Shown: positions 32,601 through 43,306 of the stretch, in pieces
How positions within the stretch are numbered: position 1 is the stretch's first letter
Layout: each line of letters opens with the position of its first letter
Origin: an uncultured Fimbriimonas sp.
Lineage (GTDB): Bacteria > Armatimonadota > Fimbriimonadia > Fimbriimonadales > Fimbriimonadaceae
DNA length: 43,911 bases
Assembly (NCBI GenBank): GCA_945952345.1
Contig: CAMFIS010000011.1
Span: 1-43,911 of the forward strand
Reading direction: 5' to 3'
Position numbers and translations under genes: made by a program
The notes under the pieces: model-generated
The model's database searches: none
Seen by the model: only the letters and a program-made list of their open reading frames with translations
Told to the model about the DNA's origin: nothing

Positions 32601-33299
32601 ATGAATTTGGGCAATGTTACACGCGGTGCAGCTCTCGCTGTTTTCGCGGTTAGTGCGCTTACTGCGAATGCTCAGTCCGTGTCCATGTGGTGGAACAAAC
32701 AGGGGGATGCTGCGGCTACGCAGCCGGCTACGGTCGATGTCCTTGCTGGTTCGACGGTCACGCTGAGCTTCTACATGTCGACTTCGAATTTCACGGGTGG
32801 AATTACGCAAGTCTATTCGATGGTTGGATTCGACACGACGACGTCCATGGGCAATTCTGCTTCCCCTGCGGGTAGCGGCATCACACTCAACGGCTCCGTC
32901 GCTTGGGATACCACGAGTCTTCCAGGTGGATCGAACCTGGGCGACACGCTCGGCGGTGGATACGGTACTTCCGGTACGCGACCATACGGCGTTTGGGCTT
33001 CGTACGTTCGAAACACTGGAAACTTTGGGTTCACGAACTCCAGCAACCTTCACATTTTCGATGTCACGTTGAACGTGAGCAATACGCTTACGGCAGGTAC
33101 CTTGCGACCGGTTACGATCTTCTCGGCTCCGTCGCTGCCTGGCTTCTACGACACAGAAGTGTGGGATACAAACAATTTAGCTGCAGCTCCGCAAACCTAC
33201 GTTGCCAACCTCCGAGTTGTCAATCCGGTTCCGGAACCCGCATCCCTCGCCGCTTTGGGTATTGGCGCCGCAGCTCTGCTTCGACGCCGCAAGAAGTAA
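32601..33299 (+). CDS. PEP-CTERM sorting domain protein
   Basis: This 232-residue secreted protein has a signal peptide (residues 1-24, ending TANAQ), a beta-rich middle region of unknown fold (cohesin-like length, with many Ser/Thr/Gly) and a C-terminal PEP-CTERM tag: VPEPASLAALGIG, a hydrophobic stretch, then RRRKK. The tag is cut by an exosortase in the inner membrane, normally during exopolysaccharide-linked export. No exosortase lies in the window. A strong terminator follows, so the gene is monocistronic. Confidence 0.88.
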   Translation: MNLGNVTRGAALAVFAVSALTANAQSVSMWWNKQGDAAATQPATVDVLAGSTVTLSFYMSTSNFTGGITQVYSMVGFDTTTSMGNSASPAGSGITLNGSVAWDTTSLPGGSNLGDTLGGGYGTSGTRPYGVWASYVRNTGNFGFTNSSNLHIFDVTLNVSNTLTAGTLRPVTIFSAPSLPGFYDTEVWDTNNLAAAPQTYVANLRVVNPVPEPASLAALGIGAAALLRRRKK

Positions 33300-33349: not shown

Positions 33350-33416
33350 GTAGGTCATTCCTTGCATTTCTTTCAGGGTGAAGTTGTTTATTGGGGATCT
33401 GGCAACATCCTGCCAA

Positions 33417-33432
33417 CTCGATGGTCATCGAG
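33417..33432 (+). promoter_or_regulatory. Palindrome just upstream of the first sedolisin start
   Basis: A perfect inverted repeat CTCGATG/CATCGAG with a GT spacer ends 11 bases before the ATG at 33444 and covers the GAGAG ribosome-binding region. It could be an operator or an mRNA hairpin that limits translation. Confidence 0.4.
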
Positions 33433-33443
33433 AGACGATTCAT

Positions 33444-35192
33444 ATGAAGTGTTTCAAAACTATTAATTCAAAGGCGAGCTTTTCCGTAACAGGTCTTCTC
33501 GCATTTGTTTCGCTGTCTACGGTCGCACAAGCGAACCCGCAGCAATCGGCAAAGGCGCCGCTTCCTGGCAGCATCAATCCGGTCGTTGCGAAAAGCATGC
33601 CGGCCTTTATGCCTCCGGCTCTGGTCAGTCCTATGGATTCGATTGAAGTCGCAATCAGCCTCAAGCCAAAGGATATGGCTGGCCTTCAAGCCATGGCTGA
33701 CGCGGTGAGCAATCCGAATTCACCCCTCTACCGCCAATACCTCAGCCCCGAAGAAATTGGCCAACGCTACGGTGCAGAGCAACGCGACGTCGATGCGGTC
33801 AAGGCATTCTTCATCACCGGCGGTATGAAGGTCACGCACGTTGGAAAAACGAATCTAACGATTGCGGCCACTGGTACTCAAGCTCAGATCGAAGCCCTGT
33901 TCGGCACCAAGATCAACTACCTGCAAACCACAGACGAGGAAGGCACCATTCGCTATCGAGCGAACGTGACCGCCCTCAACGTCCCAAGCAACTTGGTCAA
34001 CAAGATTCAGAGCATCGACGGCGTGGAGAATTACACGCGGCCGAAGCGTCGAGGCACCACGCTGAATCCGACGCAAACTCGAACGCTCTACAATGTAGCT
34101 CCGGCATATGCCACAGGCTACCAGGGGCAGGGTCGAGGCGTTGGAATCTCGAACTGGGATGGCTTCAAGCTGACGAACGCTCCGCTGTTCATCAATGCGT
34201 ACGGTCTTCCGGTTCCGGGAGGCGGCGCCGGCAGCAACATCACCGTCGTGAAAGTCGGAACTGGCAGTCAGAACAATACGGCTCAAGGTGAAGGCGATCT
34301 CGACTTCCAGATGGTTCTCGGCTTGACTCCCTTGGCGAACATCTACATCTTCGATGGTACGGGTGGAAATCTGGTCACGGTTCTTTCCACCGAAGTCTCG
34401 GACAACCGAGCCGACATCATCTCGGAGAGTTATGGCTGGAACGTAACGAGTGCTACGGCAACCTCGGCTCATACTCAGCACGTTGCGATGACCACCGCTG
34501 GTATCACCTACATGGCGGCGTCAGGCGACTCAGGAACTTCTTTCGGAGCGTTCGACTATCCAGACTATGACCCCGAGGTTCTCCTCGTGGGTGGCACGGT
34601 TGCAACGACGAATGGCGGTGGCACCCGAACCGGCGAGCAGACCTGGGGTCTGGTTGGCGGATGGGGAGCCGGCGGAGGCTGGTGCACTTCGGCTAACTCA
34701 ACGGGCACCACGTTCAACGTCATGCCGTCCTGGATGGTTGGAACGGGTGTTCCATTGTCTTCCACTGTCAACCGACGGTTGGTTCCTGATGTTTCACTCC
34801 ACGCTTCCGGCGCGGATGGCGCAACGCTGGGCGCTTACTTCATTTACTACAACGGCGCGTTGAATGCCTTCTTGGGTACCAGCGCTGCTTCTCCGACATT
34901 TGCCGCCGGTCTAGCACAGGTCGAGCAGAGACTTTACGCCACGGGTGGCCGCGGTGCGAACACAAACAAGGGTCGTCTCGGACGAATCCAGGATCGTGTA
35001 TACGCCCAAAACGGTCGATCGGACGTTTGGTTCGACATTACCACGGGAACCAGTATCGGAAACTTGCCATCGTCGGGAGGCGGCGCGTTGAACAACACGG
35101 CCGCGAATCCGACCGCGAAATGGGACTTTGCCACGGGTTGGGGTGCAATCGACTTCAACGCGTTCTATAAGACCTTCTTCGAGGGCCGATAA
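33444..35192 (+). CDS. S53 family serine-carboxyl protease (sedolisin/kumamolisin-like), copy 1
   Basis: This 582-residue secreted protease has a signal peptide (residues 1-30) and a pro-kumamolisin activation domain (about 60-200, with LKPKDMAGL and YLSPEEIGQRYG). The catalytic domain has Glu283 and Asp287 (GEGDLDF), the oxyanion Asp362 (ASGDSG) and the nucleophile Ser480 (GTSAASP), the full Ser-Glu-Asp set of S53. The C-terminal segment with VWFDITTG and GWDFATGWG-type residues resembles the calcium site. The family works at acid pH and self-activates. ATG 33444 is preferred to an in-frame start at 33378, which would place 22 extra residues before the signal peptide. It is followed after 9 bp by the next gene. 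Confidence 0.93.
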   Translation: MKCFKTINSKASFSVTGLLAFVSLSTVAQANPQQSAKAPLPGSINPVVAKSMPAFMPPALVSPMDSIEVAISLKPKDMAGLQAMADAVSNPNSPLYRQYLSPEEIGQRYGAEQRDVDAVKAFFITGGMKVTHVGKTNLTIAATGTQAQIEALFGTKINYLQTTDEEGTIRYRANVTALNVPSNLVNKIQSIDGVENYTRPKRRGTTLNPTQTRTLYNVAPAYATGYQGQGRGVGISNWDGFKLTNAPLFINAYGLPVPGGGAGSNITVVKVGTGSQNNTAQGEGDLDFQMVLGLTPLANIYIFDGTGGNLVTVLSTEVSDNRADIISESYGWNVTSATATSAHTQHVAMTTAGITYMAASGDSGTSFGAFDYPDYDPEVLLVGGTVATTNGGGTRTGEQTWGLVGGWGAGGGWCTSANSTGTTFNVMPSWMVGTGVPLSSTVNRRLVPDVSLHASGADGATLGAYFIYYNGALNAFLGTSAASPTFAAGLAQVEQRLYATGGRGANTNKGRLGRIQDRVYAQNGRSDVWFDITTGTSIGNLPSSGGGALNNTAANPTAKWDFATGWGAIDFNAFYKTFFEGR

Positions 35193-35201
35193 GGAGATCG
35201 A

Positions 35202-36317
35202 GTGAGGAAAATGAACATGAAGAAAATCTTTGCAATCGGTGCGTTCCTCCTGAGCGCACTCTCGTTCGGCCAGGCATTTACGGAAGGCTTCAACGACATG
35301 ACCGATGCGGCTGGCACGTCGACCACGACAGCGCTGGAATCGCGCGGTTGGTCGTTGGTCAACAATAGCTCGGCACTGGGTAACACAGGCTGGTTCGGCA
35401 ACGGTACGGTCTTCGCATCGCACACCGGCGCTGGATATGCTGGAGCGAACTACGAAAACGTCTCGGGCTCGGGCACGATCAGCAACTGGCTGATTTCGCC
35501 AATGGTAACGCTGAGCAATGGCGACACCTTCTCGTATTGGACTCGAACCTCAACCGGCGTTCACCCGGATCGCCTGGAAGTGCGACTCAGCACCAACGGT
35601 ACCAGCACGAACGTTGGATCGACGGCGACGTCGGTTGGTGACTTCACCACCGTCATCGATACGGTTAATCCGAATCTCTTGACGGGCTCAGCCAACTACC
35701 CGACGACCTGGACCCAGCACACGATTACCGTGTCGGGACTCAGCGGAACCTTTACCGGCCGCTTTGCTTTCCGATACGCGGTAACTTCGGCAGGAAATGG
35801 TCAGCCAAACGGGGAGTACATCGGGGTCGACGACGTGGCCTACACGCCGACGACGACGAAGACGATCAGCGGTGCACTGACGTTGAACAGCTACGTTGGC
35901 TCGGTTACGAATCTTCAGTTTGTGTACGAACTGCGAGACTCGTCGACCAACGCCCTGATCGAAACGCATACAATCACCGGCCTTGGTTCGGGCAATACAT
36001 TCTCGTTCACCACGACTCAGGCTGCGGGCAGCTATAAGCTTCGCATCAAGGGTGTTAACCGATTCATGGCAACAAGCCTGCCAGTTACGGTTACGGGTTC
36101 GGGCGCTTCTGGCCTGGCTTACACGTTGAGAAACGGTGACTGTAGCGGCGACAACCTGGTCGGCACGGCGGACTTTAACATCCTCCGCGCGGCATGGGGC
36201 GCTACCAGTTCGTCCGGCAACTGGAATGAAGCGGCTGATCTCAATGGCGATGGCGTCATTGGCACAGCGGACTTCAACATTATGCGCGCCAACTGGGGCA
36301 CCGTCGGAGACAACTAA
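35202..36317 (+). CDS. Secreted protein with choice-of-anchor J-type domain and C-terminal dockerin-like module
   Basis: This 371-residue protein has a signal peptide (about 1-24). A jelly-roll-like domain of the cleaved-adhesin or choice-of-anchor J type follows (about 25-210; GFNDMTD, SNWLISPMVTL, YIGVDDVAYTP). The C-terminal module of about 155 residues has an Ig-like beta domain (about 217-305) and two dockerin-type calcium loops (GDCSGDNLVGTADFN and ADLNGDGVIGTADFN), ending NWGTVGDN. AAGGAG overlaps the sedolisin stop and lies five bases before GTG 35202; in-frame ATGs at 35211 and 35217 are alternatives. It is probably co-transcribed with the sedolisin. The ligand of the first domain is unknown. 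Confidence 0.85.
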   Translation: MRKMNMKKIFAIGAFLLSALSFGQAFTEGFNDMTDAAGTSTTTALESRGWSLVNNSSALGNTGWFGNGTVFASHTGAGYAGANYENVSGSGTISNWLISPMVTLSNGDTFSYWTRTSTGVHPDRLEVRLSTNGTSTNVGSTATSVGDFTTVIDTVNPNLLTGSANYPTTWTQHTITVSGLSGTFTGRFAFRYAVTSAGNGQPNGEYIGVDDVAYTPTTTKTISGALTLNSYVGSVTNLQFVYELRDSSTNALIETHTITGLGSGNTFSFTTTQAAGSYKLRIKGVNRFMATSLPVTVTGSGASGLAYTLRNGDCSGDNLVGTADFNILRAAWGATSSSGNWNEAADLNGDGVIGTADFNIMRANWGTVGDN

Positions 36318-36387: not shown

Positions 36388-38772
36388 ATGAAATTAACTG
36401 CAATCGTGACCGGCCTTATTGTGCTCGCCGGAGCAATATCTCAAGCCCAGACACCGGGCAAAACGTTCATTAGCAAGGCTAAGCCAATTGTCGAGACGAC
36501 CGCACAGATCATGGCGCGTGATCGTTCGCAGGGTCCAAAGCGACCAGTTCAAAAAATTAAGGACTACGAGACCGAGCATGAAGTGGATCGGGAGCATCTG
36601 CATCAGAATCCTAAGTCGCTGCCAACTCCGTCTTGGCCGCCACAAATGAACGATCGACCAATTAAGATTGGTGACCAAGGCAAGGGCGGTGGGACTGGCC
36701 CCCTCTTCAGTGTCCCGGTAGATTTTGGCGGTGGTACCGTCGCCGAGGGGCAGGCAGTTCCGCCGGATTCAGATGGTGATGTCAGCCTTAGTTCGGTCAT
36801 CGTCGCCGCGAACGGAATCATTAAGTCCTTCGATCGCACGGGTAATTTAGGTGTGATCAACACCTCGACGAATAACTTCTTCGCATCCGTTCGAGGCTCT
36901 GGTACAAGCGATCCCCGGGTTGTCTTCGATCGAATTACTAAGCGCTGGTTTATCGAGATCATCGACGTGACGAGCACGAACAATCGCGTCTGCCTGGCAG
37001 TTAGCAATCAAGAAGCGATCAATGCTTCGACGACGTGGACATTCTTCCAGTTCGCGCAAAACATTGCCGGTGGAGCGTCCGGATTTGCCGACTATGCGAC
37101 GTTGGGTGTTGACGCAAACGGTGTTTACATCGGTACCAACCGGTTCGCAAGCTCGTTTGCGAACTGCGACGTGTTCGCAATTAACAAGGCACAGCTTTTT
37201 GCAGGAACGCTGAATGTGACCGCGTTCCGCAACATGATCGACACGACCACGTTCACCGGGATGTTCACCCCATGGCCGGCCACCAATGACGATCCCGCCG
37301 CCAATGTTGCGCTGATTGTTGGTGTCGACGCCAATGCCTTCGGGTTGTTGAGCTATCGTCGAGTGACGTTCTCGGGTGGAGTATTTACGATATCTGCGAA
37401 CTCGACGTTGACGGTGCCGACAACCGCGTCGCCTTTGGCAATGCCAATTTCGACATCTGCAACGACGACGGGTTCAGTCGACGCCCTCGATGATCGACTG
37501 TTCTACGCTCGAGTCTGTAGAAACCGCTTAACGGGTGAAGTGAATGTTCACACCGCTCATGGCATTCGAATGACCTCAGCGGGTGCTGGCTCCGCCTCCG
37601 GCGATCGAAGCGGTGCAAGATGGTACAACCTCGGAAACGTCTTCTCCGGAAGTCTTTCGCTCACCCAGTCGGGAACGGTGGTCGATTCTGCTGGATCAGG
37701 ATTCAAGTACTGCACGATCCCGTCTACGGCGATGAATGGCCAGGGTAACCAGTTCATTGGTTTCTCCATCGGCAATACTTCGCAGTCACCTTCGGTTGGT
37801 GGCGCGTATCGAGTTTCTGGCGATCCTCTCGTCACGGCGCCCACCACGATTGACGCCGGAGCGAACTACTATAATCTTCAGAGCGGTACTCCGAATGGTA
37901 AGCGATGGGGCGACTATTCGTTCACGATGGTCGATCCTCGCGACATGATGAGCATCTGGTCGTTCCAGGAATACTGCAACGCCAACAACTCGTGGCAGGT
38001 TCGCTGCGTCAAGATCCAAGGTCCCGGACCGACGATCACGTCATTCTCGCCATCCTCGGCGACGCAGGGTCAGACTCTGAACGTTACGATCACGGGAACT
38101 GGCATCTTCGATCCGGATTCCACGTATCCCGACCACCTCGCGGTGAACTTCGGATCCAACGTGACGATCAATACGCTCACGTGGAACAGCGCAACCCAGG
38201 CCACGGCGAACATCACCGTTGGAAACAGCGCGGCGACGGGAGCTCGAACGGTTACCCTGACCAACCCGGACGGCCAGTCCACAACGGGTTCGTTCACCAT
38301 CAACACGGCAAATAAGACGGTTAGCGGTACGTTGGCCTTGTCTGGGTATACGGGTTCAGTCTCGAACTTGCAGTTCATCTACGAGATTCGAGATGCTTCG
38401 ACGAACGCTCTGATCGAAACTCAAACGATCACCGGTCTTGGTTCGGGCAATACGTTCTCATTCAACACAACCCAAGCGGCTGGCAGCTACAAGCTCCGGA
38501 TCAAGGGTGTGAACCGGTTCCTGGCCAAGTCTCAGGCTCTGACGCTTTCAGGTTCGGGAGCTTCAGGTCTCAGCTACTCGCTGGGTAACGGCGACTGCAA
38601 TGGCGATAACCTTGTTGGCACGGCGGACTTCAATATCCTGCGTGCAGCATGGGGCGCTACCAGTTCGTCCAGCAACTGGAATGAAGCCGCCGACATGAAC
38701 GGCGACGGCGTCATCGGTACGGCAGACTTCAACATCCTCCGTGGCAACTGGGGTACCGTCGGAGACAACTAA
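36388..38772 (+). CDS. Large secreted protein with IPT/TIG and dockerin-like C-terminal module, copy 1
   Basis: This 794-residue protein has a signal peptide (about 1-20). A long N-terminal region (about 20-545) contains VPPDSDGDVSL, DPRVVFDRITKRWF and RWGDYSFTMVDPRDMMSIW, a pattern seen in many secreted bacterial proteins of unknown role; no catalytic site can be assigned. An IPT/TIG domain follows (about 548-640; ITSFSPSSATQGQTL). The last 155 residues are an Ig-like domain and two dockerin-type loops, ending NWGTVGDN. ATG 36388 is chosen over an upstream TTG because GAGGG lies just before it. The next gene is a paralogue with an identical C-terminal module. Confidence 0.85.
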   Translation: MKLTAIVTGLIVLAGAISQAQTPGKTFISKAKPIVETTAQIMARDRSQGPKRPVQKIKDYETEHEVDREHLHQNPKSLPTPSWPPQMNDRPIKIGDQGKGGGTGPLFSVPVDFGGGTVAEGQAVPPDSDGDVSLSSVIVAANGIIKSFDRTGNLGVINTSTNNFFASVRGSGTSDPRVVFDRITKRWFIEIIDVTSTNNRVCLAVSNQEAINASTTWTFFQFAQNIAGGASGFADYATLGVDANGVYIGTNRFASSFANCDVFAINKAQLFAGTLNVTAFRNMIDTTTFTGMFTPWPATNDDPAANVALIVGVDANAFGLLSYRRVTFSGGVFTISANSTLTVPTTASPLAMPISTSATTTGSVDALDDRLFYARVCRNRLTGEVNVHTAHGIRMTSAGAGSASGDRSGARWYNLGNVFSGSLSLTQSGTVVDSAGSGFKYCTIPSTAMNGQGNQFIGFSIGNTSQSPSVGGAYRVSGDPLVTAPTTIDAGANYYNLQSGTPNGKRWGDYSFTMVDPRDMMSIWSFQEYCNANNSWQVRCVKIQGPGPTITSFSPSSATQGQTLNVTITGTGIFDPDSTYPDHLAVNFGSNVTINTLTWNSATQATANITVGNSAATGARTVTLTNPDGQSTTGSFTINTANKTVSGTLALSGYTGSVSNLQFIYEIRDASTNALIETQTITGLGSGNTFSFNTTQAAGSYKLRIKGVNRFLAKSQALTLSGSGASGLSYSLGNGDCNGDNLVGTADFNILRAAWGATSSSSNWNEAADMNGDGVIGTADFNILRGNWGTVGDN
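38306..38772 (+). repeat. 467-bp perfect direct repeat, copy 1 (C-terminal module)
   Basis: Bases 38306-38772 equal 40764-41230 at every position I compared, row by row. The identity ends exactly at the TAA stop, and starts at the beginning of the Ig-like/dockerin-like module. A diverged third copy of the module covers about 35850-36317. Confidence 0.95.
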
Positions 38773-38796
38773 CTTACCGAGCATTTGGTAATCGAC

Positions 38797-38830
38797 AAAT
38801 GGCTCAGGGAAAACTCTGAGCCATTTTCTT
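38797..38830 (+). terminator. Rho-independent terminator after large secreted protein 1
   Basis: A perfect 11-bp stem AAATGGCTCAG (38797-38807)/CTGAGCCATTT (38816-38826) with an 8-base loop ends in a T-run (TTTTCTT). Confidence 0.88.
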
Positions 38831-38854
38831 AAGTGTATTGATAGGAACAGAAAG

Positions 38855-41230
38855 ATGATGAGATTCGGAACACTGGCAATGTTAGGGTTGGCGCTTGCCG
38901 TCATCGCGCCGGCGCAAACGGTAGGCAAGTCCTACCGGCTCAAGATCAAGCCTGTGATCGAGACGACCGCTCAGATCATGCAGAGGACACGCCTCCATGG
39001 ACCGAAGCTCCCGATCCGCGTGGCGAAAAGGTACGAAGTCGAGCACGAAATCGACCGTGATCATTTGCCGCAAAATCCGCAGTCGCTGGCATCGCCGACC
39101 TGGCCCCCGCACATCAGCGATCGTCCCATTACGATTGGCGATGGCGACAAGACCATCGGTGGTCCTTACTTTGGCGTTGCGGTCAACTTTGGCGGCCCGG
39201 TTTCGGCCGAGAGTCCCTACGTCCCGCCCGATACGAACGGCGACGTTGGATTGACTACAGTCATTGCGCAGGCAAACGGCCGAATTCGATCGTACGATCG
39301 ACTCGGTAACGCGGGTGCGCTCAACACCGACGCGGATTCATTCTTCGCTTCCGTCCGAGCCTCGATCGTCGTTGACCCACGCGTTGTCTTCGACCGGATA
39401 TCTAAGCGATGGTTTGTGGAAGGCATCGACGAAGCGAGTCCGAACAACAACATTTGTCTTGCGGTCAGCGATGGTGAAGCCATCACCGGTTCAACCGTTT
39501 GGAAGTTTTATGCGATTCCTCAGAATGTGGGCGGGGGAGCCAATGGTTTTGCCGACTACGCGACCATGGGTGTGGACGCAAGCGGTGTGTACTTTGGAAC
39601 CAACCGTTTCGCCAGTTCCTTTGCGAACTGCGACGTGATTTGCTTGGACAAGACGCTGCTGCTGAACAGCAACACAGTTTTGGCTACACCATTCCGCAAC
39701 ATGATCTCGAGCGGAACCGGGATGTTCACGCCTTGGCCCGCAACGAACGACGATCCGGCCGCGAATGTCGCGTTGGTTATCGGCGTGGATGCCGGTGCAT
39801 TTGGCAAACTAGACTACCGTCGCATTACTTATACTGCCGGCGTTTTCTCGATTTCGGCCAACGCTTCGATCACAGTTCCGACGACGTCGAACCCAATGGC
39901 AATGCCGATTTCGACCTCGTCGACGGCTACCGGTTCCATTGATGGCCTCGATGATCGGCTGTTCTACGCGAGAATTTCTCGGAATCGACTGACCGGGCAA
40001 GTCAACGTTCACACTGCCCAGGGTATTCGCATGAACTCCTCCGGCACAGGTTCGAGTTCGGGTGACCGAGATGGCGCGCGATGGTACAACATTACGAGCC
40101 CATTCTCGGGAACAGCGACGCTGACCAACGCCGGAACTGTGGTCGATCCCGCGAGCACAGGCTTCTTGCACTGCACCATTCCATCGGTAGCGATGAACGG
40201 ACAGGGCCATGAATTCATCGGATTTACGATTGGCAATACGGCTCAGTCGCCGAGCATTGGTGGCTCCTACCGACTCTCCACCGACGGGCTGGTCACGGCC
40301 CCAACGATCATCACGCCGGGGGCGAATTACTACAATGCCCAAGATGGAACCAACCCCAAGCGATGGGGCGACTACTCGTTTACGATGGTCGATCCTCGCG
40401 ACATGATGAGCATTTGGTCGTTCCAGGAGTACTGCAACGCCAACAACTCGTGGCAGGTGCGTGGCATCAAGGTCTTGGCCCCGGCGCCAACCGTGACCTC
40501 GTTCTCGCCAAGCTCAGCGACGCAGGGGCAGACCCTAAATGTGACCGTGACCGGTACGGGGATCTTCGATCCGGATTCCACGTATCCCGACCACTTGTCG
40601 TTCAACTTTGGCGCGAACGTCACAGTGAATTCAGTGACCTGGAACAATGCAACCCAGGCGACTGTGAATATCTCGGTAGGCGCTTCGGCGGCCACTGGTT
40701 CGCGAACGGTAACGTTGACGAATCCGGATGGGCAAACGGCCACTGCGCCATTTAGCATTCTTCCGGCAAATAAGACGGTTAGCGGTACGTTGGCCTTGTC
40801 TGGGTATACGGGTTCAGTCTCGAACTTGCAGTTCATCTACGAGATTCGAGATGCTTCGACGAACGCTCTGATCGAAACTCAAACGATCACCGGTCTTGGT
40901 TCGGGCAATACGTTCTCATTCAACACAACCCAAGCGGCTGGCAGCTACAAGCTCCGGATCAAGGGTGTGAACCGGTTCCTGGCCAAGTCTCAGGCTCTGA
41001 CGCTTTCAGGTTCGGGAGCTTCAGGTCTCAGCTACTCGCTGGGTAACGGCGACTGCAATGGCGATAACCTTGTTGGCACGGCGGACTTCAATATCCTGCG
41101 TGCAGCATGGGGCGCTACCAGTTCGTCCAGCAACTGGAATGAAGCCGCCGACATGAACGGCGACGGCGTCATCGGTACGGCAGACTTCAACATCCTCCGT
41201 GGCAACTGGGGTACCGTCGGAGACAACTAA
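38855..41230 (+). CDS. Large secreted protein with IPT/TIG and dockerin-like C-terminal module, copy 2
   Basis: This 791-residue paralogue of the preceding protein has a signal peptide (about 1-21), the same PPDTNGDVGL, DPRVVFDRISKRWF and RWGDYSFTMVDPRD segments, an IPT/TIG domain (about 545-636) and the C-terminal module (637-791). The two proteins differ clearly over their first 635 residues, but the module is identical even at DNA level. ATG 38855 has AGGAACAG upstream. A lone gene between terminators, it needs its own promoter, which I could not define. Function is unknown; surface display or binding is likely. Confidence 0.85.
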   Translation: MMRFGTLAMLGLALAVIAPAQTVGKSYRLKIKPVIETTAQIMQRTRLHGPKLPIRVAKRYEVEHEIDRDHLPQNPQSLASPTWPPHISDRPITIGDGDKTIGGPYFGVAVNFGGPVSAESPYVPPDTNGDVGLTTVIAQANGRIRSYDRLGNAGALNTDADSFFASVRASIVVDPRVVFDRISKRWFVEGIDEASPNNNICLAVSDGEAITGSTVWKFYAIPQNVGGGANGFADYATMGVDASGVYFGTNRFASSFANCDVICLDKTLLLNSNTVLATPFRNMISSGTGMFTPWPATNDDPAANVALVIGVDAGAFGKLDYRRITYTAGVFSISANASITVPTTSNPMAMPISTSSTATGSIDGLDDRLFYARISRNRLTGQVNVHTAQGIRMNSSGTGSSSGDRDGARWYNITSPFSGTATLTNAGTVVDPASTGFLHCTIPSVAMNGQGHEFIGFTIGNTAQSPSIGGSYRLSTDGLVTAPTIITPGANYYNAQDGTNPKRWGDYSFTMVDPRDMMSIWSFQEYCNANNSWQVRGIKVLAPAPTVTSFSPSSATQGQTLNVTVTGTGIFDPDSTYPDHLSFNFGANVTVNSVTWNNATQATVNISVGASAATGSRTVTLTNPDGQTATAPFSILPANKTVSGTLALSGYTGSVSNLQFIYEIRDASTNALIETQTITGLGSGNTFSFNTTQAAGSYKLRIKGVNRFLAKSQALTLSGSGASGLSYSLGNGDCNGDNLVGTADFNILRAAWGATSSSSNWNEAADMNGDGVIGTADFNILRGNWGTVGDN
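40764..41230 (+). repeat. 467-bp perfect direct repeat, copy 2 (C-terminal module)
   Basis: Second copy of the repeat at 38306-38772, offset by 2458 bp. Sequences flanking both ends differ at once. Confidence 0.95.
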
Positions 41231-41250
41231 AGTCTCTTCAAACCAAGGCG

Positions 41251-41285
41251 ATGGGCTCGGGAGAATATCTCGAGCCCATTTGCTT
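41251..41285 (+). terminator. Rho-independent terminator after large secreted protein 2
   Basis: A 9-bp stem ATGGGCTCG (41251-41259)/CGAGCCCAT (41271-41279) is followed by TTTGCTTTTG. It opens the 369-bp gap before the second sedolisin, which otherwise holds a palindrome, a promoter and a leader of about 97 nt, but no gene. Confidence 0.85.
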
Positions 41286-41599: not shown

Positions 41600-43306
41600 A
41601 TGAAGAAGAACCTCATGAATGCTCGCATGAAGGCATCGTTCACCTTACTTGCCCCTTTGGCTCTTTCGGTTGCGGCTCAGGCTCAATCCGTTGCGAAACT
41701 TGTGCCCCTTCCCGACTCGGTCCGACCTGAAGTTTGGCAAAGCATGCCACTCTTCTCTAGCCCGCTCGCGACGAGTGGCAAGATCGACGTTTCGATCACC
41801 TTGAAGCCTCGCGATCTGGATGGCTTGGAAGCGTTTGCCGATGCCGTCAGCAATCCCAAGTCCAGTCAGTACGGGCACTACATTTCTCCCCAGGAAGTTG
41901 GCATTCGATTCGGCGCATCGCCGACCGACGTCGCTGCCGCTAAGGACTTTCTGACAAAGGGTGGTCTCACGATCACCCATGTCGGCAAAAACAATCTAAC
42001 CATTGCGGCGTCGGGAACCCAAGCTCAGGTCGAAGCTCTCTTCCAGACCAAGATCCAAAATTTTCAAACCGTCGATGGCGCAGGAACGACGACGTTCCGA
42101 TCGAACACTTCGATGCTAAGCGTCCCGTCTGGACTCGTGAATAAGATTCAGAGTATCGATGGCGTCGAAACCTACACTCGGCCCCAGGCTCATGGCACTT
42201 CGCTGAAGCCAAGCATGACGCGAACCCTTTACGGTCTGGCAACGATGTTCAACGCCGGTACTACTGGCGCAGGTCGCACCGTCGCGATCTCTAGCTGGGA
42301 CGGATTTAAGCTCAGCAATGGCAATCTCTTTATTTCGCAATACGGTTTGCCCGTCCCTGCGGGTGGAGCAATGTCGAACGTCAACGTCGTTCATGTCGGC
42401 ACCGGAACTCAGAACGGAACCGCGAACGGCGAGGGCGATCTCGACTTCCAAATGATCTTGGCGGTGGCTCCCCTTTCCAATATCGTGATCTACGATGGAA
42501 CCGGCGGCAACTTGACGACTGTGCTCTCGACCGAAGCTTCCGCCAATACGGCCGATGTCATTACTGAAAGCTACGGCTGGAATGTGACGGCGGCGACGGC
42601 AGCCAGCGCACATACGCAGCACCTGTCGATGACGGCCCAAGGAATGACCTATATGGCCGCCAGCGGCGACTCGGGCACGACGCTTGGTCCATACGACTAT
42701 CCGGACTATGATCCTGAAGTCTTGAGCGTGGGCGGGACGATCGCGACAACCGATGCGAACGGAAACCGAACAAGCGAAACCTCATGGGGCGCTTCGGGTG
42801 GAAACGGCGGCGGCGGTGGCTGGTGCACTTCGACTGCGGCAAACGGATCGAGTTTCAACGTTCACCCAAGCTGGCAAGTTGGTACTGGTGTTCCCGCTTC
42901 TTCCACCGTGAATAAGCGGTTGGTACCGGACGTCGCACTGCATGCCTCGGGCGCGAACGGCTTCAACAGCCCGTATGCCTACTATGCTTACTACAATTCG
43001 GGCCTGACTCAGTTCAGCGGCACGAGCGCGGCTTCGCCAACGTTTGCCGCGGGTCTCATCCTTTGCGAGCAAAAACTGTTCGCGGCTCGAGGCACGGCTC
43101 GGCTTGGACGAATTCAGGATCGAATCTACTCCCAGAATGGACGATCGGACGTTTGGTTCGACGTCACGACCGGAACGAGTATTGGTCGATTGCCGACGTC
43201 CGGCGGCGGCTCGCTCAACCGAACTCAGGCCACACCAAAGGCCGGCTGGGACTTCGCAACTGGCTGGGGCTCGGTTAACTTCAACGCGTTCTACGGAACT
43301 CTATAG
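41600..43306 (+). CDS. S53 family serine-carboxyl protease (sedolisin/kumamolisin-like), copy 2
   Basis: This 568-residue paralogue of the protease at 33444-35192 has a signal peptide (about 1-29, ending AQAQ), a pro-kumamolisin domain (about 40-190; LKPRDLDGL and YISPQEVGIRFG) and a catalytic domain with Glu278 and Asp282 (GEGDLDF), Asp357 (ASGDSG) and Ser476 (GTSAASP). The same order of segments at the C-terminus (VWFDVTTG, GWDFATGWG) supports an intact enzyme. ATG 41600 has AAGGAAA upstream. It has its own strong promoter and is followed by a hairpin. The two proteases frame the three dockerin-tagged genes. Confidence 0.93.
   Translation: MKKNLMNARMKASFTLLAPLALSVAAQAQSVAKLVPLPDSVRPEVWQSMPLFSSPLATSGKIDVSITLKPRDLDGLEAFADAVSNPKSSQYGHYISPQEVGIRFGASPTDVAAAKDFLTKGGLTITHVGKNNLTIAASGTQAQVEALFQTKIQNFQTVDGAGTTTFRSNTSMLSVPSGLVNKIQSIDGVETYTRPQAHGTSLKPSMTRTLYGLATMFNAGTTGAGRTVAISSWDGFKLSNGNLFISQYGLPVPAGGAMSNVNVVHVGTGTQNGTANGEGDLDFQMILAVAPLSNIVIYDGTGGNLTTVLSTEASANTADVITESYGWNVTAATAASAHTQHLSMTAQGMTYMAASGDSGTTLGPYDYPDYDPEVLSVGGTIATTDANGNRTSETSWGASGGNGGGGGWCTSTAANGSSFNVHPSWQVGTGVPASSTVNKRLVPDVALHASGANGFNSPYAYYAYYNSGLTQFSGTSAASPTFAAGLILCEQKLFAARGTARLGRIQDRIYSQNGRSDVWFDVTTGTSIGRLPTSGGGSLNRTQATPKAGWDFATGWGSVNFNAFYGTL

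Follow-up and report, generated by a model that had tools for sequence, protein, structure and literature searches.

Two adjacent genes of an uncultured Fimbriimonas species raise the question of how proteins that have diverged over most of their length can end in exactly the same stretch of DNA. Both lie on the forward strand of a 43.9-kb contig, analysed here over its whole length of 43,911 bp (the window), which belongs to a 3.96-Mb MAG of 304 contigs. Gene B (36388–38772) comprises a signal-peptide-like N-terminus, a beta-propeller-like part, a TIG domain, an X-module and a dockerin, as judged from the open reading frame, Pfam and NCBIfam matches and the fold of its paralogue. Gene C (38855–41230, an open reading frame with an AF2 model) is a tandem paralogue of B. 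Direct comparison confirmed the first-pass annotation, according to which the last 467 bp of the two genes are identical up to the stop codon: positions 38306–38772 of gene B equal positions 40764–41230 of gene C, the longest identical run between them, at an offset of 2458. The tract starts at the second base of the codon preceding GCA-AAT-AAG (protein ...ANKTVSG...) and ends with the last base of the TAA stop codon in both genes. The annotated divergence upstream and in the 3' flanks was found as well. Outside the tract B and C share 65.7% DNA and 67.5% protein identity (636 aligned codons), and the flanks diverge from the very next base (CTTACCG versus AGTCTCT). A terminator-like hairpin follows gene B (38797–38826, forward strand, inverted repeat of 11 nt with 100% identity) and another, of different sequence, follows gene C (41250–41280, forward strand); both lie outside the tract.

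The shared end was characterized by profile searches and structure prediction. Dockerin_1 was found by Pfam above the cut-off at the ends of genes A, B and C, gene A being the one that precedes B. In B and C, the dockerin with its two calcium-loop repeats covers positions 38590–38739 and 41048–41197, respectively, on the forward strand (PF00404 above the cut-off, 36.2 bits each); the repeats show conserved Asp columns, and the AF2 model places helices at residues 105-114 and 138-146. The module of gene C was modelled with a mean pLDDT of 96.3 and a pTM of 0.87. The ten best Foldseek matches of this model in the PDB were all chains of X-module and dockerin (XDoc) or scaffoldins containing XDoc, with TM-scores of 0.67-0.75. 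Further support is provided by a profile of 19 related modules, whose first PDB matches were cellulosomal scaffoldin chains over nearly the full length; 4wi0 and 4u3s matched it over positions 5-149. Model and matches describe an Ig-like X-module that packs against a C-terminal dockerin, in which helices follow the two duplicated calcium-binding loops. Since the tract begins two residues ahead of the first strand of the X-module, it coincides with this unit, and the identical DNA is predicted to encode a complete X-module and dockerin dyad. Fold, domain order, C-terminal position and the two calcium-loop repeats are those of type II XDoc in cellulosomal scaffoldins (2b59, 4wi0, 4u3s, 5k39; PMC5141474). 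Unlike these, the dyads described here have only ~20% sequence identity to scaffoldin XDoc, occur in a family without a detected cohesin and are carried by propeller, choice-of-anchor and, at other loci, subtilase proteins instead of scaffoldins. For the remainder of gene C the model was less confident (mean pLDDT 71) and showed a beta-propeller, which resembled sialidase folds in Foldseek searches and is followed by a TIG domain (Pfam). The signal-peptide-like starts, judged by eye only, suggest that these XDoc proteins are secreted.

A third, diverged module had been annotated in the preceding gene and is indeed present. Gene A (35202–36317, forward strand) encodes a choice-of-anchor J domain (NF038128, E 1.4e-35), an X-module and a dockerin. 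Its dyad (35856–36314) is 82% identical to those of B and C at the protein level and 79% at the DNA level over the last 410 bp, and its N-terminal domain is unrelated to the N-termini of B and C. The A-B-C cluster is flanked by two paralogous genes for sedolisin-like proteases with a pro-kumamolisin activation domain, one before gene A (33378–35192, PF09286, E 5.7e-27) and one after gene C (41600–43306, PF09286, E 6.2e-29), both on the forward strand. In a congener (G005), a sedolisin-like gene is likewise located 3' of a dockerin end (L054, 624-2345).

The distribution of silent differences is decisive for the origin of the tract. Among codons that specify the same residue in B and C, 230 of 410 differ upstream, but 0 of 150 differ in the module, a contrast which requires copying of DNA. 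When codon columns were shuffled, the longest identical run did not exceed 44 nt in 300 trials. The absence of any difference over 467 bp puts divergence at no more than ~0.6% (upper 95% limit). Two tandem paralogues with the same domain order could also be explained by a recent duplication of the whole gene, after which the N-terminal part diverged quickly while purifying selection held the C-terminus. However, purifying selection would not preserve synonymous codon choice at 150 of 150 positions beside a region where 56% differ, the identity rises abruptly at a single codon, and in their N-terminal parts B and C resemble each other no more closely than either resembles a congener. Plain duplication with selection is therefore refuted by the silent sites and retains practically no probability. 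Domain-bounded gene conversion between B and C is real and well supported, and the process is known from other systems.

The locus was compared with those of other genomes, one per species; the named congeners of the window's genome are Armatimonadetes MAGs. The same locus, with an MFS transporter, a PEP-CTERM protein, XDoc genes and SecA, is present in congeners. One of them (G006) has two XDoc paralogues there, whose N-terminal DNA is 62% identical with 63% of silent codons different, compared to 78% identity and 43% different silent codons in the module. Between genomes, the modules share only 63% DNA identity. In module trees the G006 pair was joined with a support of 100 and B was joined with C, so that modules group by genome, and grouping by gene was strongly rejected (AU p < 1e-29). 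Thus, a tract of high identity that includes silent sites and has sharp edges against diverged flanks is also one in which paralogues are closer to each other than to their orthologues, as in concerted evolution. In N-terminal trees gene C was joined with copy 2 of G006 (support 89-96). Grouping by genome was only marginally rejected for this part (AU p 0.043-0.073), and it is for this reason likely but not certain that the duplication of B and C is older than the species split. The conflict between module and N-terminal trees indicates that the two lineages homogenized their modules independently. A second patch of few silent differences between B and C (6/26, at about 37915-38012) was considered as a further conversion tract and discarded, since G005 is equally close to both genes there (4/24 and 4/23) and conservation is indistinguishable from conversion in this region.

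Similar pairs were found in other genera of the family. On a 975-kb contig of G072, two adjacent genes have a DNA identity of ~55% across most of ~375 codons, which rises to ~90% from the start of the X-module to the stop codon; their 3' flanks differ. This genome was analysed further by comparing 62 dockerins (1890 pairs). Both of the pairs that ranked highest in similarity consisted of adjacent genes on the same strand, and only four pairs lie within 2 kb, which gives a chance of ~3e-6 under random placement. Tandem duplication alone could lead to such closeness, but in both pairs the preceding parts are far more diverged than the dockerins. G036 has a run of three genes with 85-92% identity in their final 60 codons, falling to 45-51% immediately upstream. 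These genes (L098, G036:C144, 2414-6312) have near-identical dockerins and unrelated upstream parts, the tract extending over the dockerin but not over the X-module. Conversion of XDoc genes between neighbours thus recurs in at least three genera of the window's family. It is not universal: other adjacent G072 pairs are 70% and 44% alike, and tandem copies in G074-G076 keep their own types, as judged by eye. A genome-wide homogenization was rejected for G072, where mean similarity is no higher for near pairs than for distant ones, so that the effect concerns particular adjacent pairs only. In other genera (L086, L089, L091 and L092) XDoc is replaced at the end of the same propeller protein by another C-terminal domain. 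The tandem pair in the closed genome of G052 has no dockerin; its alternative C-terminal domain (L086) is common to at least three neighbouring genes.

The exact identity over 467 bp rests on an assembly that was probably made from short reads. The first bases of contig C150 in the same MAG match what we take to be a Nextera transposase adapter, which makes short reads likely. This contamination (L062, 1-51) is read into a subtilase open reading frame. Possibly, two similar modules were collapsed by the assembler into one consensus that was used twice, and the fragmentation into 304 contigs and the adapter would fit such an artefact, as would the contigs of two congeners, G005 and G006, which end inside the same module. 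Such breaks are as expected of a repeat, which is circumstantial evidence. In G005 (end of L053, start of L054) ~144 bp of the module are missing at the break, so the bin may have lost a second XDoc gene from this locus. On the other hand, the gene order around both copies in the window agrees with that of congeners up to SecA. Collapse also needs near-identical copies, so that the contrast to flanks of 66% identity would stay, and the same pattern, without full identity, is seen in G006 and on the 975-kb contig of G072. We therefore consider an artefact unlikely; a collapse of near-identical copies, possible for the last per cent of identity, would affect the dating of the event but not the kind of event it is.

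In the first-pass annotation the tract was attributed to very recent gene conversion or module transfer, with edges at the domain border and the stop codon, and the module was said to behave as a mobile tag. Conversion with these edges was borne out; mobility was not. By a DNA search of the whole assembly, just five dockerin ends were found, namely the modules of genes A, B and C and two remote ends on other contigs, and no further copy is identical. A cassette that moves as a unit to new passenger genes would explain why the same dyad stands behind a choice-of-anchor J domain, propellers and subtilases, which indicates that the dyad has been shuffled over long times. However, both X-module and whole-module trees place the two dispersed copies (subtilase genes on contigs C150 and C26) with the respective orthologues from G005 and G006 and not with the tandem cluster. 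No inverted repeats were found at the edges of the tract, and the homogenized pairs are adjacent genes. In this assembly, neither identical copies at unlinked loci nor mobility signals at the tract edges were detected. Based on the grouping of dispersed copies by orthologue and the missing edge signals, we reject the mobile cassette, which appears very improbable.

The best explanation is gene conversion between the tandem paralogues B and C, recurrent among neighbouring XDoc genes and with shared docking as the likely reason; we assign a probability of roughly 0.8 to this reading. B and C would be old tandem paralogues, whose propeller-like and TIG parts drifted to ~66% identity. Very recently, the XDoc dyad of one gene would have been overwritten by that of the other in an intrachromosomal conversion, presumably by homologous recombination of the RecA type. 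Towards the right, the tract would have run to the end of the shared homology; an edge at the stop codon needs no special mechanism, because the homology of B and C ends there. Towards the left it would have reached the start of the X-module, where it was probably held because B and C are less similar farther upstream and because selection acts on their distinct N-terminal domains. The same process would recur between neighbouring XDoc genes in the family, probably because neighbouring secreted proteins dock via the dyad to the same surface partner. With a common partner, alike dyads would keep the shared docking specificity while the passengers diverge.

Such a role of conversion is suggested by analogy to the mammalian tandem paralogues TLR1 and TLR6. 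In these receptors, conversion is restricted to a domain: the N-termini follow orthologues, and the C-terminal region is closer between paralogues of one species. The lineages underwent conversion independently and with almost the same edges, which was explained by shared binding partners (PMC2077338). Tandem arrangement, a homogenized C-terminal region and recurrent, near-equal edges are common to both cases. The Fimbriimonas genes differ in that they encode bacterial surface proteins, the tract extends from a domain start to the stop codon and the partner is hypothetical. Among bacteria, gene conversion was described for PE_PGRS and PPE genes of the Mycobacterium tuberculosis complex, including the adjacent pe_pgrs17 and pe_pgrs18 (PMC12046097). 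That conversion is also intrachromosomal, recurrent, between close paralogues and easily missed with short reads. Its tracts are repetitive or antigenic, whereas here a folded docking dyad is converted in genes that are otherwise only 66% alike. In the literature searched, no paper with a relevant link between dockerins and gene conversion was found, and none connecting Fimbriimonas with dockerins.

Dockerins normally bind cohesins. Of 85 genomes in the window's family, 40 contain dockerins, with up to 87 per genome (G072) in a deeper search. Cohesins (PF00963) were found in 0 of these 85, while across the phylum the same search was positive for 33 of 291 genomes. Accordingly, no cohesin-bearing scaffoldin, as expected for a cellulosome, was detected in the 85 family genomes. 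A candidate partner is encoded close by. The gene of a PEP-CTERM surface protein (32601–33299, forward strand, PF07589) is located upstream of the XDoc genes, separated by one sedolisin gene in the window and directly before them in most congeners. Full-length homologues in the family are found beside an XDoc gene in 12 of 13 cases, from three genera, with G068 as the exception. The passengers next to them vary, being propellers in seven genomes and subtilases in G007, G066 and G074-G076. Besides the window, loci of this kind include L105, L109, L215, L099 and L106. This adjacency across varied passengers makes the PEP-CTERM protein a candidate anchor. The idea that it is a divergent cohesin was rejected at the sequence level, as the hhalign probability was 24% with 7 rows and fell to 5% with 13 rows, and searches of Pfam and the PDB gave no match other than PEP-CTERM. 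Because the cohesin comparisons failed, it is the genomic association that points to the protein as a candidate, yet unproven, docking receptor for XDoc. A broader scheme would be a docking system independent of cohesins: the PEP-CTERM protein and its relatives would form a new surface-anchored receptor, with hardly any or no sequence similarity to cohesins, for XDoc-tagged proteases and propeller proteins, and conversion would keep the dyads of neighbouring genes matched to it. We consider this scheme possible, but less likely than not. A cohesin-dockerin peptidase complex, the 'Planctosome', was proposed for freshwater Planctomycetes (PMC6461901). As in that proposal, non-cellulosomal dockerins occur here on or beside secreted proteases; the proposed complex has cohesins, whereas none were detected in the window's family.

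Domain-restricted conversion thus has precedents in animal receptors and in mycobacterial surface genes; here it comprises a complete docking dyad. Of wider interest is that the converted tract corresponds to an XDoc dyad although no cohesin is detectable in the family. The recurrence of conversion points to a functional constraint, which may be a shared specificity and can be tested. A family rich in dockerins and without a detectable cohesin raises the question of what these dockerins bind, and the conserved PEP-CTERM neighbour makes this question testable.
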